In this document: piece after piece, positions 44,182 through 51,401 of the stretch
How positions within the stretch are numbered: position 1 is the first letter of the stretch
How the letters are laid out: each line of letters opens with the position of its first letter
Assembly (NCBI RefSeq): GCF_013376095.1
Contig: NZ_JAAMFN010000028.1
Coordinates: 1-57,252, forward strand
Origin: Arthrobacter sp. SDTb3-6
GTDB lineage: Bacteria; Actinomycetota; Actinomycetes; Actinomycetales; Micrococcaceae
DNA length: 57,252 bases
Reading direction: 5' to 3'
The notes under the pieces: model-generated
Database searches by the model: none
Seen by the model: only the letters and a program-made list of their open reading frames with translations
Told to the model about the DNA's origin: nothing
Made by a program: the position numbers and the translations under genes

Positions 44182-44194
44182 GGGCGGTTCCCTT

Positions 44195-44292
44195 CACGGT
44201 TTGTCTGGCACGGTTTGTCTGGCACGGTTTGTCTGGCACGGTTTGTCTGGCACGGTTTGTCTGGCACGGTTTGTCTGGCACGGTTTGTGTGG
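44195..44292. repeat. 14-bp tandem repeat, seven units
   Basis: Unit CACGGTTTGTCTGG repeats six times exactly (44195-44278) and once with one change (44279-44292). The array begins 14 bases before the MFS start codon, so it lies in its 5' untranslated region or promoter, and upstream of the divergent AsnC promoter. No spacers are present, so it is not CRISPR. Confidence 0.95.
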
Positions 44293-44360
44293 CACGGCCG
44301 CAGCGGCCGGGACCGCGAAAACCGGCAACAGAGTGTTGCCGGATGCTGCAAATCCATCTA

Positions 44361-44400
44361 TAGAATGGCGTATGGGAAGTTTTATGATCCAGACTTTCCA
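44361..44400. promoter_or_regulatory. Promoter and inverted repeat before the second asnC-type gene
   Basis: TAGAAT (44361-44366) with a TTGCCG 19 bases upstream. It shares the ten bases TAGAATGGCG with the first asnC promoter. TGGGAAGT (44373-44380) and ACTTTCCA (44393-44400) form an inverted repeat (7 of 8 pairs), a candidate AsnC site. Confidence 0.45.
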
Positions 44401-44990: not shown

Positions 44991-45986
44991 GTGACCATCA
45001 TTGACAACGGCGTGTACGTGGACGGGGTCCGCGTCGCCACCCCGCAGGGCCTGGACCAAACCTACGAGGCCATGGCCGCCTGCGGCGGCATGGCCTGGAT
45101 CGGCCTGTTCCGCCCCGATGCCGCGGAAATGGCCTCCCTGGCCGATGAGTTCCAGCTCCACGAGCTGGCCGTCGAAGACGCCATCAAGGCACACCAGCGG
45201 CCCAAGATGGAGAGATACGACGACGTCCTGTTCACCGTCCTGCGCCCCGCACGCTACCTGGATGCGGAGGAAGCCGTCGAGTTTGGCGAGCTGCACATCT
45301 TTACGGGCAAGAACTTCGTCATCACCATCCGGCACGCCGAAACCCGCAGCCTGGCCTCCACCCGGCACCGCATGGAGGCCGACCCGCAGCTGCTCGCCCA
45401 GGGCCCCGAGGCCGTCCTGTACGCCATCCTTGACCAGGTGGTGGACGACTACCTGCCGGTGGCGGCCGGGCTGGAAAACGACATTGACGAGATCGAGGAC
45501 CAGCTCTTTGCCGGTGACCCCAACGTCTCCCGGCGGATTTACCAGCTGTCCCGGGAGGTCATCCACTTCCAGCGCGCCATCCACCCCCTGCCCGACACGC
45601 TGGGCCGGCTCAAGGGCGGCTTTGAGAAGTACGGGGTCGACGTGGAGCTGCAGCGCTACCTGCGCGACGTTGAGGACCATGTGGAATCGTTGACGGCCAA
45701 GGCCGATTCGTTCCGGCAGCTGCTGCAAAATGCGCTCACCGTGGACGGCACCCTGACCGCCAACCGCCAGAACGAGGCGAGCGCCGCCCAAAACGAGCAG
45801 GTCAAGAAGATCTCCTCCTGGGCGGCCATCTTCTTCGCCCCGACCTTCGTGGCCGGTGTGTACGGGATGAACTTCCACAACATGCCGGAGCTGGCCTGGC
45901 CGTGGGGCTACCCGTACGCCATCGGCCTCATGTTGCTCATTGGCGCCGTCATGTACGTGGTATTCAAGAAGAAGACCTGGCTGTAG
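44991..45986 (+). CDS. corA: CorA-type magnesium/cobalt transporter
   Basis: A 331-residue 2-TM-GxN channel. A long cytoplasmic funnel domain (LHELAVEDAIKAHQRPKMERYDD, DYLPVAAGLENDIDEIEDQLF, LRDVEDHVESLTAKADSFRQLLQNAL) leads to two C-terminal helices, with the selectivity motif GMN in VYGMNFHNMPE. The C-terminus is basic (KKKTWL). It imports Mg2+ down the membrane potential. GTG 44991 is six bases after CATAAT. The last 23 bases overlap the end of bioD (convergent). Confidence 0.95.
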   Translation: MTIIDNGVYVDGVRVATPQGLDQTYEAMAACGGMAWIGLFRPDAAEMASLADEFQLHELAVEDAIKAHQRPKMERYDDVLFTVLRPARYLDAEEAVEFGELHIFTGKNFVITIRHAETRSLASTRHRMEADPQLLAQGPEAVLYAILDQVVDDYLPVAAGLENDIDEIEDQLFAGDPNVSRRIYQLSREVIHFQRAIHPLPDTLGRLKGGFEKYGVDVELQRYLRDVEDHVESLTAKADSFRQLLQNALTVDGTLTANRQNEASAAQNEQVKKISSWAAIFFAPTFVAGVYGMNFHNMPELAWPWGYPYAIGLMLLIGAVMYVVFKKKTWL

Positions 45987-46689
45987 CACCCGGTCCGGGC
46001 CCGGCCGGCAGGCGCAGCCACCGCGGCGCCCGTTCCTGAAAGGTGTGCGGCGCCAGGCCGGCCGCCCCGGCCGGCAGTGCGCCCAGGTACGGGGTGGCCA
46101 GCTGGCGGAAATAGCTGCGGTTGTCCTCCTCAAGGTCCGACGGCGTGCGCGGCCAGGAGCCGACCACCAGGCCGGCGGCCGGCAGGCCGCGGCGCTCCAG
46201 CGCCTCCAGCGTCAACAGCGTGTGGTTCAGCGTGCCCAGGCCGCTGCGGCAGACCACCACGGTGCTGCACCGGAAGGCCCGTCCCGCCGCCACCGCCAGC
46301 TCCGCGAGGGTGTTGCCGTTGGCGTCCAGCTCCACGAGCAGTCCGCCGGCGCCTTCGACCAGGACGTGGTCGAACGCGCCGGCCAGGCCGGCGATCCGGT
46401 CCACGTGCTGGGCCAGCGCGGGCAGCCCCCGGCCCTCGCGGACGGCGGCGGCCACCGGCGCCATGGGATCCCGCAGGCGGATGCCCTCGTGGACGGCCCT
46501 GACACCGCTGAGCCTTGACACTTCGGCCATGTCGCCGGCACCGTCCGGGGCCACCCCTGTTTGCGTCGGCTTGTAGACGGCAACGGTTGCCCCGACGGCA
46601 CGGTGGGCGGCGGCGAGGGCGGCCGTCGTGACGGTCTTGCCGACGTCGGTGTCCGTGCCCGTGACAAACGTGATGGCAGCTGGTTTCAC
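45964..46689 (-). CDS. bioD: Dethiobiotin synthetase
   Basis: ATP-dependent enzyme that closes the ureido ring of dethiobiotin from DAPA and CO2. The 241-residue protein has the P-loop GTDTDVGKT at its N-terminus, YKPTQTG, VEGAGGLLVELD and the VVGSWP block. GTG 46689 overlaps the P450 stop as GTGA, so it is the last gene of the bioB-bioA-bioF-P450-bioD operon with tight translational coupling. The tail after RAPRWLRLPAG is short and poorly conserved and overlaps corA. Confidence 0.94.
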   Translation of the reverse strand: MKPAAITFVTGTDTDVGKTVTTAALAAAHRAVGATVAVYKPTQTGVAPDGAGDMAEVSRLSGVRAVHEGIRLRDPMAPVAAAVREGRGLPALAQHVDRIAGLAGAFDHVLVEGAGGLLVELDANGNTLAELAVAAGRAFRCSTVVVCRSGLGTLNHTLLTLEALERRGLPAAGLVVGSWPRTPSDLEEDNRSYFRQLATPYLGALPAGAAGLAPHTFQERAPRWLRLPAGPGPGATARSSS

Positions 46690-47822
46690 GGTTCTCCCTG
46701 GGTGGCGGTGACGGTGAGCGGGGCCTGGAACGACAGCAGCCGCAGCCACTGCGGCGGCGGCCCGGCCAGGCGCAGTCCGGGCAGGGCCGCGGCGGTCTCC
46801 TCCACAACCAGTGCGGTTTCCAGTTCCGCCAGCCGGGCCCCGAGACAGCGGTGCAGGCCGTGGCCAAAGGCCAGCGAATAGGCGGTGGGCCCTGCCCCGG
46901 CGGGGTGGTGCCCGCTGAGTTCGAGCAGGATTTCCGCCCCCGCCGGGAGGCTGGCGCCGCCCAGCGTGGTGTCGACGACGGCGGCCCGCCGCCAGGTGTG
47001 GACGGAGGACTCTGCGGCGAGGACGCGGCGGACGTGGGCCTGCGCCCGCCCGGGTTCGGCGAGTCCGGCCCAGCCGCCCGGGCCCGGGCCCGGGGTGCCG
47101 GTGCCGGCGGACTCGGTGCCGGCGGACTCGGTGCCGGCGGACTCGGTGCCGGCGGACTCAAGGCCGCGGTACAGTGCGGTGCTGATCAGCAGGGAGGTGG
47201 TCTCCTGTCCGGCAATGACCAGAAAATACCCCAGCGAGCACACCTCCGGCTGTGTCAGCCCGGCGGCGTCCAGCACCCCGAACAGGGAGGCCGTGCCGCG
47301 GGCGGCCGCCGCCTCGCCCCGGAGCCAGCCATAAAATTCGGCGGCGCTGCGCGCCAGGACCTGCTGCCGCTCCGGGTCCGGCCAGCCCCAGAACAGTTCC
47401 AGCGAGTCCCGGCTCCAGCGATTGAGGAGGCCCGGTTCCGGGATCGGCTGGCCCGTGAGCCCGGCCATGATGAGCGGCGGGATGTGGCGGGCCACGGCGT
47501 CGGCCAGGTCCACGGGCCCGTGCCGGAGGCCGGCCGCCGCCGCGTCCAGCCGCTGCCGGGCGAGCTCGCGCACCCGCGGCGCAACGGCGGCCACCTTGGC
47601 GGGCGTGAAAAACCGGCCAACCATGGTCCGCACCGCACGGTGCCGCTCCCCCGTGGCGGAGGCCAGCACGGGCGGCAGCGCAAAGCGGGCCTTGCTGAGG
47701 ATGCGCAGGGTGGCCGGCGCCAGGGGCACCACGGAGGTCAGGGCGTTGGTGGGGGCAAAGTCCTCCGTGCGCCGCATGACCTCCCGCACCTGGGCAGGGT
47801 CCCCGACCACCGTGAACGTCAT
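46686..47822 (-). CDS. Divergent cytochrome P450 in the biotin operon (BioI-like role suggested)
   Basis: A 378-residue P450. The heme-thiolate loop is intact (FGHGLHRCLG, Cys326) and the I-helix has AGQETTS. The K-helix ExxR motif is not seen: the region reads AQAHVRRVLAAESSVHTWRR where an E-x-x-R should stand, and the stretch before the heme loop is shortened. A low-complexity insert of four 15-base in-frame units (TESAG repeats, 47101-47160) precedes it. ATG 47822 overlaps the bioF stop as ATGA. Lying between bioF and bioD, it probably supplies a pimeloyl precursor, as BioI does in Bacillus subtilis, but this is inference; loss of ExxR may alter heme stability. Confidence 0.85.
   Translation of the reverse strand: MTFTVVGDPAQVREVMRRTEDFAPTNALTSVVPLAPATLRILSKARFALPPVLASATGERHRAVRTMVGRFFTPAKVAAVAPRVRELARQRLDAAAAGLRHGPVDLADAVARHIPPLIMAGLTGQPIPEPGLLNRWSRDSLELFWGWPDPERQQVLARSAAEFYGWLRGEAAAARGTASLFGVLDAAGLTQPEVCSLGYFLVIAGQETTSLLISTALYRGLESAGTESAGTESAGTESAGTGTPGPGPGGWAGLAEPGRAQAHVRRVLAAESSVHTWRRAAVVDTTLGGASLPAGAEILLELSGHHPAGAGPTAYSLAFGHGLHRCLGARLAELETALVVEETAAALPGLRLAGPPPQWLRLLSFQAPLTVTATQGEP
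47101..47160. repeat. 15-bp in-frame tandem repeat inside the P450 gene
   Basis: Unit GTGCCGGCGGACTCG four times, the last with one change. On the minus strand it encodes repeated Thr-Glu-Ser-Ala-Gly. Copy changes would keep the frame. Confidence 0.9.
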
Positions 47823-48946
47823 GCCGCACCCACTGCCCGGGCCACGGCGCCGGCAGCCCGGTCCAGTTCCGCGGCACCAAGGTTGGCCCGGGCCGTGAGG
47901 CGCAGCCGGGACACGCCGTCGGGCACGCTGGGCGGTCGGAAGCAGCCCACGGCCACGCCGGCGGCACGCAGCCCGGCAGCCAGCGAGGCTGCGCGCTCGG
48001 CCGACCCCACGGCGATGGACTGCACCGCGCCGGCCGCAGGGTCCGTCCCGCACCGCCGGGCCAGCAGCGAGGCGTTGTCCAGCATGCGCCGGGCCAGGGC
48101 GGGCTCGGCCAGCACGATCCGGGCCGCCTCGGCCGCCGCCGCTGCTGCAGCCGGGGCCAGGGCGGTGTCGAAGATGAAGGTCCGGGCCGTGTTGGCCAGG
48201 TGCTCCCGAAGCAAATGCGGGCCCAGGACGGCGCCGCCCTGCGAACCGAGCGCCTTGGACAGCGTCACGGTGACGGCCACGTGCGCCGCCCCCGCAAGCC
48301 CGGCGGCGTGGACGGCCCCGCGCCCGGCACCGGCCACCCCGATCCCGTGCGCCTCGTCCACCAGCAGCAGCGCATCGTATTCGGCGCACAGGGCTGCCAT
48401 GTCCGCGAGCGGCGCGGCGTCCCCCAGCACTGAATAAATGGATTCAAGCACGACGACGGCGCGCGGCTGGGTGCGCCCGGCCAGTGCCGCCCGGATCCCG
48501 TCCGTGTCCTGGTGCGCCACGGCGACCGACGGCGAGCGCGAGAGCCTGATGCCGTCAAGCAGCGAGGCGTGCACGTGGGCGTCGTGGACCATGAGCGTCC
48601 CGGGTCCGCCCAAGGCCGCGACCACGCCTAGATTGGCGGTGTAGCCGCTGGAAAAGGCCAGGGCGGCTTCCTGGCCGGTGAGCAGGCACAGCTGCCGTTC
48701 CAGGTCCAGGTGGGCGGCCGTGGTGCCGCACACCACGCGGGATGCGCGGGCGCCGGCGCCGTGCAGGGCCAGCGCCGCGGTGGCAGCCGCGACCACGCGC
48801 GGGTCCGAGGACAGCCCCAGGTAGTCGTTGGAGGCCAGGTCGACGAGGCCGTGCTGCAGCCCCACGGTGCGGACCAGCCCGCGGCGTTTCCGGACGGCCG
48901 CGCGGGCGGCCAGCCATTCGTCCATGGCTGTTGCCGTGGGGGCCAT
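47819..48946 (-). CDS. bioF: 8-amino-7-oxononanoate synthase
   Basis: PLP enzyme of 375 residues that condenses pimeloyl-thioester with alanine to KAPA. It has LASNDYLGLSSDPRV, GAGARASRVVCGTTAAHLDLE, LLVDEAHGIGVAGAGRG and the PLP lysine in TVTLSKALGSQGG. ATG 48946 shares a base with the bioA stop (TGATG). It feeds BioA; its pimeloyl substrate may come from the P450 encoded next. The open frame upstream is inside bioA. Confidence 0.95.
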   Translation of the reverse strand: MAPTATAMDEWLAARAAVRKRRGLVRTVGLQHGLVDLASNDYLGLSSDPRVVAAATAALALHGAGARASRVVCGTTAAHLDLERQLCLLTGQEAALAFSSGYTANLGVVAALGGPGTLMVHDAHVHASLLDGIRLSRSPSVAVAHQDTDGIRAALAGRTQPRAVVVLESIYSVLGDAAPLADMAALCAEYDALLLVDEAHGIGVAGAGRGAVHAAGLAGAAHVAVTVTLSKALGSQGGAVLGPHLLREHLANTARTFIFDTALAPAAAAAAAEAARIVLAEPALARRMLDNASLLARRCGTDPAAGAVQSIAVGSAERAASLAAGLRAAGVAVGCFRPPSVPDGVSRLRLTARANLGAAELDRAAGAVARAVGAA

Positions 48947-50304
48947 CAGCCGTGCACCTCTCTGATGGCGGCAGTGATGCCTGCGCCGATTTCGGCCACG
49001 TCGGCAGGGGTGCTGGTGTAGGGCGGCATGGTGTAGACGAGGTTGCGGAAGGGCCGCACCCACACGCCGTGCCCCAGGGCCGCGCGCGTCACGGCCGGCA
49101 CGTTGACCGGCCCGGAAAGTTCGACGACGCCCACGGCACCCAGGACGCGCACCTCCCGGACCGCGCCGAGCGATGCCGCCGGCTTCAGGGCGTCCTGCAG
49201 GCCGCGCCTGATCCCCCGCACCCGGTCCTCCCAGCCGGAGGCGGCCAGCAGGTCCAGCGAGGCACAGGCCACGGCGCAGGCCAGCGGGTTGCCCATGAAC
49301 GTGGGCCCGTGCAGCAGGGCGCGCAGCGGCGAGCCCGTGATGGCACGGGCAACCCCGGCCGAGCACAGCGTTGCCGCGAGCGTCAGGTAGCCGCCCGTCA
49401 GGGCCTTGCCGACGCACATGATGTCCGGGACCACGCCCGCCCAGTCGGAGGCAAACAGCTTGCCGGTCCGGCCGAGGCCGGTGGCGATCTCATCGCAAAT
49501 GAGCAGCAGCCCGTTGTCACTGGCCACGCGCCGCATGGCGGCCAGCGCACCGGGAGCGTAGGCGTGCATGCCGCCGGCGCCCTGCAGCACCGGTTCAACA
49601 ATGATGGCCGCCAGCTCGTCTCGGTGGCGGGCCACCGTGTCCTCAAGCGTGCCCACCCACTTGGCGAGTGCTTCGGCGTCGGCCAGCAGTTCGCCGCCAA
49701 CCAGCCGGGCGGCGGGCGGGCGGGGCAGGAAGAGCTGTTCGGCGATGAGGGACGGAAAGGCCGCGTGCATGCCGTCCACGGGATCGCACACTCCCATCGC
49801 GGCGAAGGTGTCCCCGTGGTATCCGCCGCGCAGCGCCAGAAACCGCGTCCGCCGGGGACGGCCGCGGCCCAGCTGGCACTGCACGGCCAGCTTCAGTGCC
49901 ACCTCCACGGAGACCGAGCCGGAGTCGGCCAGGAACACGTGGTCCAGGCCGTCCGGCGTCATCGCCACCAGCCGTTCGGCCAGCTCCACGGCGGGCCCGT
50001 GGGTCAGGCCACCAAACATCACATGGCTGAAGCGGCCCGCCTGGTCCAGCAGCGCCCGGTCCAGCACGGGGTTGCGGTAGCCGTGTATGGCGGACCACCA
50101 GGAGCTCATGGCGTCCACGGCGTCGAACGGTGTGCCGTCGGCCGCGCCCAGGGTCAACCGGGTCCCGGACGCGCCAAGGACGGCGTAGGGTGCGTCCCCG
50201 TCCAGCGGCGCGTAGGGGTGCCAGAGCAGGCCGCGGTCCCGGGCAATGAGCCCGCAGGCCGGTGCTGCGGCGCCCGCGCGGACTGCGCCGGCAGCCTCAG
50301 GCAT
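48946..50304 (-). CDS. bioA: Adenosylmethionine-8-amino-7-oxononanoate aminotransferase
   Basis: A 452-residue class III aminotransferase that turns KAPA into DAPA using S-adenosylmethionine as amino donor. It shows [65 protein letters not shown] and the PLP lysine in [18 protein letters not shown] 50304 overlaps the bioB stop by eight bases. The frame continues upstream into bioB and is not used. Confidence 0.95.
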
Positions 50305-51394
50305 TGGGCGCCACGGCCGTTCCCGCCCCGCGGCGGCGGATGGTGGCGGGGGCACCCGGGGTGGTGCCGGCGTCGTTCGTGCCCCGGATCGCAGTGGCGG
50401 GCTGGCCGGCAGGGCCCTTGCCCAGGACCACGAAGCCGTTGTCGGCGATCATGTCCAGGTCGGCCCGGCCTTCCTGGCCCTCGCTGGTGAGGTAGTCGCC
50501 AAGGAACAGGGAGTTGGCCACGTGCAGGGCGAGTGGTTGGAGAGAGCGCAGGTGCATCTCGCGCCCGCCGGCCATGCGCAGCTCGGTGGCGGGGCAGGCG
50601 AAGCGGACCATGGCGAGGATGCGCAGGCACTGGCCGGGGGTGAGCAGCCAGGTCCCTTCCAGCGGGGTGCCGTCAAAGGGCATCAGGAAATTGACCGGGA
50701 TCGATTCGCTGCCCAGGGAGCGGAGGGCGAAGACGGCGTCGACGAGGTCGTTGTTGCTCTCCCCCATGCCGGCGATCAGCCCCGAGCAGGGTGAGAGTCC
50801 GGCACCCTTGGCGTGCTCCACCGTCTGCACCCGTTCGGTGAAGGTGTGTGTGGAGCAGATGTCGGCGTAGTTGCTTTCGCTCGTGTTGAGGTTGTGGTTG
50901 TATGCGTCCACGCCCGCGTCCTTGAGGCGCTCGGCCTGGCCGCCCTTCAGGATGCCCAGGCAGGCGCAGACCTCCACGTCCGGGTGTTCCCCCTTGAGCC
51001 CGGTGACCATGCCGGCCACGCGGTCCACGTCGCGGTCGCTCGGGCCCCGGCCGCTGGCCACCAGGCACACCCGTGAGGCACCGGCGCGGATGCCGGTGGC
51101 CGCCTGGGCCGCCGCCTCCTCCGGGCTGAGCCAGCTGTACTTCAGGATCTGGGCGGCCGAGCCCAGCCGCTGGGAACAGTAGCTGCAGTCCTCCGGGCAC
51201 AGGCCGGACTTCAGGTTGACGAGGTAATTTACCTTGACCGTGTTGGCGAAGTGGGCCCTGCGGAGGCGGGCGGCCGCGGCCACCACCTCCAGCAGCTGCG
51301 CATCGGTGGATTCAAGGACGGCGAGTGCTTCGTCGCGGCCCAGGGTGGCGCCGGCGAGCTGCCGGTCGGCGAGGTCGTGAAAATAATTGAACAC
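50297..51394 (-). CDS. bioB: Biotin synthase
   Basis: Radical SAM enzyme of 365 residues that inserts sulfur into dethiobiotin. The SAM cluster motif is [10 protein letters not shown]; further blocks are [17 protein letters not shown] and [17 protein letters not shown]. The C-terminal 45 residues after [15 protein letters not shown] are a variable Pro/Ala/Arg-rich tail. Translation starts at GTG 51394, which lies at the centre of a TTGAAC-N3-GTTCAA palindrome. It is the first gene of the biotin operon and is divergent from the TetR gene. Confidence 0.96.
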
Positions 51395-51401
51395 CGTTCA
51401 A
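51387..51401. promoter_or_regulatory. Palindromic BioQ-type operator over the bioB start codon
   Basis: TTGAACACCGTTCAA has perfect 6-bp arms around 3 bases, and the bioB GTG start is at its centre. It matches the TGAAC-N3-GTT type of site known for BioQ repressors of Corynebacterium and Mycobacterium. A CAAACT six bases before the GTG could be the -10 of a leaderless bioB message. Confidence 0.75.

Follow-up and report, generated by a model that had tools for sequence, protein, structure and literature searches.

BioF takes as its substrate a C7 pimeloyl thioester. In the genome of Arthrobacter sp. SDTb3-6, a gene for an unusually reduced cytochrome P450 lies between bioF and bioD, which raises the question of whether this P450 is a working enzyme and whether it provides BioF with that substrate. 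The window that we analyzed (57,252 nucleotides) is an entire contig (C66) of a 4.31-Mb genome that is 99.97% complete. The relevant features are:

45964..46689, minus strand: bioD, dethiobiotin synthase (NCBIfam label)
46686..47822, minus strand: P450, 378 aa, without ExxR and meander and with a short N-terminus
46839..46868, minus strand: heme-thiolate loop FGHGLHRCLG, residues 319-328, Cys326
46869..46919, minus strand: shortened stretch at the meander position of canonical relatives, residues 302-318
46986..47036, minus strand: K-helix to beta strand, residues 263-279, HVRRVLAAESSVHTWRR, with R266 in the E column and A269 in the R column
47099..47159: 15-bp tandem repeat (TESAG) in the variable I-J loop
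47193..47213, minus strand: I-helix AGQETTS, residues 204-210
47819..48946, minus strand: bioF, KAPA synthase (NCBIfam label); its ATG shares one base with the bioA stop (TGATG)
48946..50355, minus strand: bioA, DAPA aminotransferase (NCBIfam label), start codon uncertain
50297..51394, minus strand: bioB, biotin synthase (NCBIfam label), first gene of the operon
51387..51401: palindrome TTGAACACCGTTCAA over the bioB start, one of its two places in the genome
51606..52211, plus strand: TetR-family regulator, divergent from bioB

The first-pass annotation had the P450 gene overlapping both of its neighbors in the order bioB-bioA-bioF-P450-bioD, and this layout was borne out, with all five genes on the minus strand and with coupling signals at either end of the P450 gene: the P450 ATG and the bioF stop overlap as ATGA (47822-47819), and the P450 stop and the bioD GTG as GTGA (46689-46686). 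In NCBIfam, the window BioF scores 330 bits, below the curated cut-off (426), and its label therefore leans on synteny too. Further along the contig, at about 44190-44400, the translations show a short tandem repeat (SGTVCLARFVWHGL...) between two ORFs that resemble, by eye, a transporter and a regulator.

The encoded protein has the P450 superfamily fold and the Cys-ligand signature FxxGxxxCxG (Cys326; present in 95 of 95 family sequences), and the heme loop and I-helix recognized in the first pass were both confirmed. The K-helix, however, reads RVLA where canonical relatives read EVLR or EGLR, and alignment with these relatives, which places R266 and A269 in the E and R columns, rules out a hidden ExxR, so that the reported absence of this motif is genuine. 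The meander sequence is also missing in this alignment, and the region before the heme loop is indeed short, with 20 residues from LLELSG to the loop compared with 32 in canonical relatives; among members of the biotin clade without a canonical meander, this stretch spans 14-40 residues as judged by eye, and the longer stretches at the meander position are unrelated sequence. Loss of ExxR together with the meander amounts to loss of the whole ERR triad. The N-terminus is short as well, residue 1 of the structural model aligning with residue 36 of BioI and residue 65 of CYP116B46. The inserted TESAG repeat, also correctly noted before, consists of 4.1 perfect copies of its 15-bp unit; it is present in 0 of the 21 other rows of the family alignment, and the I-J loop that contains it is very variable in length. 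The same genome encodes a second P450 (L055, C35:3958-5064), a CreJ-like protein with a canonical ExxR that makes a natural in-genome control. According to excerpts of PMC3599690, ExxR is a near-universal rather than a strictly defining P450 signature, and CYP157 is an accepted exception. The CYP157 proteins described there resemble the window P450 in being natural P450s without ExxR but differ in that the E is kept and the R lost (EVLW, EQILW) and in their tie to conservons; the R266 and A269 of the window P450 do not follow the CYP157 pattern of E kept and R replaced by W.

For the family as a whole, 95 distinct sequences were compared (108 rows minus copies of one genome, with L014 and L079, which lie at contig ends, L009, which contains unread bases, and the class-level loci left out beforehand). 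Both residues of ExxR are lost in 91 of the 95, the window included; L048 and L049 keep both, L130 keeps only the R and L134 only the E. Identical in all 95 are Cys326, Glu207, Thr208, Thr209, His61, Arg65, Trp277, Arg278 and Arg279, which include the heme Cys, the I-helix ETT and the C-helix H/R, so that, by sequence, the heme and oxygen site is intact throughout. In 19 close pairs, the P450 has a dN/dS of 0.07-0.32, similar to that of bioF (0.10-0.26) and bioD (0.09-0.34). These ratios, together with the invariant heme and oxygen-site residues, indicate a protein that is under selection rather than in decay.

The first pass had spoken of an actinobacterial pimelate source and of P450s between bioF and bioD in Arthrobacter; the distribution is wider than Arthrobacter and covers several Micrococcales families, and other orders have canonical forms. 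When each species was represented by one genome, a scan found 130 relatives, and among the best 80 of the 130, which were examined, bioF is a same-strand neighbor in 79 loci and bioD is present in 78. The locus without bioF (L067) and one of those without bioD (L079) lie at contig ends, and in L131 bioD was not found within its 8.3 kb. The gene order is either F-P450-D or F-D-P450, and the named carriers include Arthrobacter, Paenarthrobacter, Pseudarthrobacter, Knoellia, Kocuria, Rothia, Glutamicibacter, Salinibacterium, Cryobacterium, Sinomonas and Zhihengliuella. In a limited screen that compared the ORFs of 8 representative loci, most of these ORFs being unnamed, with those of the 80, no conserved ferredoxin or redox gene stood out beside the P450. 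The F-D-P450 loci (for example, L105:1404-2779) encode a BioB of a second type, which shares 32-36% identity with that of the window and is followed by a small ORF with CGHCGG; similar ORFs occur in 44 of the best 80 of 130 loci, and a Pfam search with this small ORF gave no match. Mycobacterial BioB reportedly requires an auxiliary protein, and, by analogy, the small ORF may encode a BioB auxiliary protein of that kind.

In four genomes (G035, 746 aa; G401, 769 aa; Rothia koreensis, 768 aa; a Propionibacterium MAG, 791 aa), BioF and the P450 form a single uninterrupted ORF. The tree places these fusions in three separate positions, with G401 next to its sister R. koreensis and the G035 row on a long branch. 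Of the 23 genomes sampled from the genus, 20 encode the P450 with bioF adjacent; the other three have no P450 match, their best BioF-family matches are 33% identical to the window BioF, and bioA, bioB and bioD were not found near those matches. Four more genomes of the window's family encode both P450 and bioF.

Across 396 Micrococcales genomes, true bioF is present in 33, and a P450 at E<=1e-45 was found in 15 by an order-wide search that scored only five first-look candidates per genome; 4 of these 15 have only CreJ-like P450s without bio neighbors, and the remaining 11 all belong to the 33 with bioF (9/9 in the window's own family and 2/24 outside it). A probable twelfth carrier is G046, where a P450 fragment is found together with a bioA-like gene at a contig edge and bioF at a different one. 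The P450 is not universal, since with five first-look candidates scored per genome none was found at E<=1e-45 in 21 of the 33 bioF genomes, which may have another pimelate source, import a precursor or encode a form too diverged for the search. Micrococcales bio operons without the P450 include L145, L197 and L199 (in G040, G293 and G420) and L186-L188. Among 17 loci with BioF-family matches in P450-less genomes, 16 were rejected as true bioF: their best BioF matches share only 28-39% identity with that of the window, bioA, bioB and bioD gave no match, and they are probably glycine C-acetyltransferases. The seventeenth, in G040, is a bioB-A-F-D operon without the P450, and none of the six neighboring ORFs scanned beside it (L145) matched a replacement pimelate gene.

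The palindrome TTGAACNNNGTTCAA occurs once in the window and 0 times in 100 shuffles of it, and it is present at two places in the 4.3-Mb assembly, where a control pattern was found at none. The copy outside the window (C107:2443-2457) lies ~12 bases before the candidate start of a bioY ORF; it is absent from the second BioY-type gene (C58). The palindrome was detected in 33 of 230 loci examined, at bio operons that include the P450 and also at some that lack it (L186-L188, L199). Its distance of 7 bases to the bioB start is unchanged in L056, L057 and L058, a sign that the bioB transcript may be leaderless. Because the palindrome marks both bioB and bioY, expression of the P450 is probably coupled to that of the biotin genes and controlled by biotin; the most likely mediator, by analogy with BioQ, is the TetR protein encoded divergently from bioB.

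The observation that bioC, bioH and bioW are missing from the window was extended to the whole genome, where the bioW part gained support, BioW having no match, and the bioC and bioH part gained little. The best genomic matches to BioC and BioH reach 62 bits against a cut-off of 185 and 77 bits against 207, respectively, and each cut-off is passed by only 1 of 14 control genomes, so these two absences carry little weight. The genome encodes two BioY-type importers, through which the organism could scavenge biotin.

The AF2 model of the window P450 (pLDDT 92.6) has CreJ, CYP116B and BioI-ACP among its best solved-structure matches. The nearest solved folds are CreJ (PDB 5XJN, 5GWE) and CYP116B (6RO8, 6LAA), and BioI (CYP107H1 of Bacillus subtilis; PDB 3EJB/3EJD/3EJE) is structurally farther away. 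The likeness to Bacillus BioI raised in the first pass does not extend to orthology: identity to the BioI chains is 18-21%, compared with the more than 40% that defines a P450 family (excerpts of PMC3599690), and the window family is further set apart from BioI by the missing ExxR and meander and by its fusions to BioF. The two do share a gene position within a biotin operon, and BioI is the precedent for a P450-made pimeloyl thioester; in B. subtilis, it is reportedly redundant because BioF there does not accept pimeloyl-ACP (PMC11089781 and PMC12915131 for both points), and one 2025 paper calls BioI unique to B. subtilis (PMC12915131). The window P450 does not group with the CreJ-like P450s either. 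Unlike the window P450, the CreJ-like P450s compared keep ExxR and the 32-residue meander stretch, and 11 other P450s, CreJ-like ones included, are separated from the biotin clade at 100/100, a split at which the tree program warns of long branches. The PDB titles of CreJ and CYP116B carry no biotin role; CYP116B46 is described as hydroxylating decanoic acid at C5 (excerpt of PMC8231624).

Overlapped by or fused with BioF, and with a palindrome shared with biotin uptake, the P450 is the natural candidate for the source of the pimeloyl thioester. Judging from these sequence comparisons, we consider it fairly likely that the P450 functions as a heme-thiolate oxygenase in biotin synthesis and provides BioF with its C7 precursor. 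The first-pass claim of a pimelate source is upheld in its link to biotin, by synteny, the fusions, the bioY palindrome and the joint absence with bioF in the genus, whereas the supply of pimelate itself is what these data best suggest. The best reading by analogy is a mode of action like that of Bacillus BioI, although the P450 is not BioI. For substrate, cleavage, redox partner and hand-over, we infer the following course: the P450 would bind a long-chain acyl group attached to its carrier, as acyl-ACP or as acyl-CoA; with O2 and with electrons from a general ferredoxin system, the chain would be oxidized at C7/C8 and then cleaved; the pimeloyl thioester would be handed to BioF, which is the product of the gene that overlaps the P450 gene or, in the species with fusions, shares a polypeptide with the P450; and BioF would condense it with alanine to give KAPA.

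Against the pimelate role stand the 21 bioF genomes with no such P450 at E<=1e-45, the limited screen in which no redox partner gene stood out, the low weight of the BioC and BioH absences, and the two BioY-type importers. Loss of ExxR and the meander could mean lost catalysis, which speaks against a working enzyme. In the extreme case, the gene would be a decaying pseudogene, as the inserted repeat might also hint, but the frame is open across many species, dN/dS stays at 0.07-0.32 and the heme and oxygen site is invariant, and decay is almost certainly not the explanation. The losses would also suit a non-catalytic, P450-derived partner of BioF, that is, a scaffold or allosteric subunit. DesVIII/EryCII-type proteins are P450-derived partners of glycosyltransferases, and the BioF fusions fit such a role, as does a match to TIGR04515 (P450-derived glycosyltransferase activators), weak at 23.9 bits against a cut-off of 343. 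As far as is known, these glycosyltransferase partners have lost the heme Cys, however, whereas the biotin family keeps it and the I-helix ETT in 95 of 95 sequences, and we find a purely structural role quite improbable.

The other alternatives concern what is made. The redundancy of BioI in B. subtilis, as those two papers report it, speaks against a pimelate role. The P450 might instead modify a biotin intermediate or make a biotin-like antimetabolite, as in the Streptomyces mkp and acd clusters: P450s occur in the acidomycin and alpha-methyl-KAPA clusters (excerpts of PMC13111796, PMC13336041), but here the P450 sits in an ordinary biotin operon, with the same palindrome and in many species, and this reading seems very unlikely to us. 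The alpha-methyl-KAPA cluster nevertheless holds what is, by analogy, the nearest functional precedent, MkpG with MkpD, which, like the window, pairs a P450 with a BioF-like enzyme; deletion of MkpG abolishes the product of MkpD, and the pair, compared here by description, differs in belonging to secondary metabolism and in that MkpG is described as a BioI homologue (available text of PMC13336041). The P450 might also supply the C7 unit by a route other than BioI-like cleavage of acyl-ACP, starting from acyl-CoA or from an acid that is free or hydroxylated. The nearest solved relatives, CreJ and CYP116B rather than BioI, favor this, and so does one BioE enzyme that, in an excerpt of PMC12915131, accepts acyl-CoA; the same source describes BioE as performing oxygen-dependent acyl-chain cleavage to pimeloyl-ACP, as proposed for the P450, from which it differs in being a non-heme diiron enzyme. 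Free pimelate, however, would have no known dedicated activator here, given that BioW has no match in the genome, and we rate the other-substrate route as possible but unlikely. Returning to the preferred reading, a catalytic P450 that makes the precursor for BioF, we give about even chances to its wider form, which likewise comes from sequence comparison: a primary-metabolism P450 family that lacks ExxR and the meander, is still catalytic and would act with BioF, on one polypeptide in some species, as a bifunctional unit converting acyl-ACP and alanine to KAPA, in a widespread actinobacterial biotin route of separate origin from Bacillus BioI.

Relatives in other orders bear on how the reduced form arose. 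A class-level search gave matches in 20 of 394 genomes; these include CreJ-like P450s because the query alignment holds four such rows, and only loci with bio genes nearby were taken as biotin relatives. In four genomes outside Micrococcales, a P450 of the same clade with intact ExxR and meander lies near bio genes (bioA-F-D-B-P450 in G534; bioB-A-P450 in G462; in G514 and G605, bioD at a distance of 2.2 and 4.4 kb, followed by bioF and bioB). The N-termini of these four are longer than that of the window P450 to varying degrees, and N-terminal loss is not uniform across the family. G480 (F-D-P450) has QVLR in the K-helix and lacks the meander. With the trait columns left out, the tree unites the Micrococcales forms with L049 and G480 at 94/87. 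Three canonical P450s with ExxR (L223-L225 from G771, G623 and G585; f37), 36-38% identical, fall inside the biotin clade, yet none of them has a bio gene in the surrounding 8 kb or so; they perhaps have a related acyl-oxidizing role, and their position means that the bio label needs two changes on the tree. With a meander scored as kept at 32 residues with Pro, and L049 (32 residues unlike a meander) set to lost by hand, the meander changes twice and ExxR five times, consistent with an early loss of the meander followed by a loosening of ExxR. This succession is uncertain, given the long branches of L024 and L049 and the program's warning that long branches meet at the outgroup. Given that the bio-linked relatives in the four other-order genomes keep both elements, the meander and, in most members, ExxR were probably shed in the Micrococcales lineage while the enzyme stayed under selection.

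Among the best-matching open-licence PMC papers, we found none on a P450 in actinobacterial biotin operons, and the accessible portions of PMC9666465, PMC9123166 and PMC13392072 yielded no biotin phenotype of a P450 carrier. Arthrobacter Leaf137 is called auxotrophic, with the vitamin unspecified, in an excerpt of PMC9666465, and the main text of that paper does not mention Leaf337 (L100). The system would be a new form of something already known, P450-made pimelate, with a P450 that is unusually reduced. If the proposed role is correct, a P450 tied to BioF would represent a P450 pimelate route that matters in vivo, and the missing first step of biotin synthesis would be filled for a large group of soil actinobacteria. 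Relatives graded from canonical to stripped forms allow a direct test of whether a P450 needs the ExxR/meander network.
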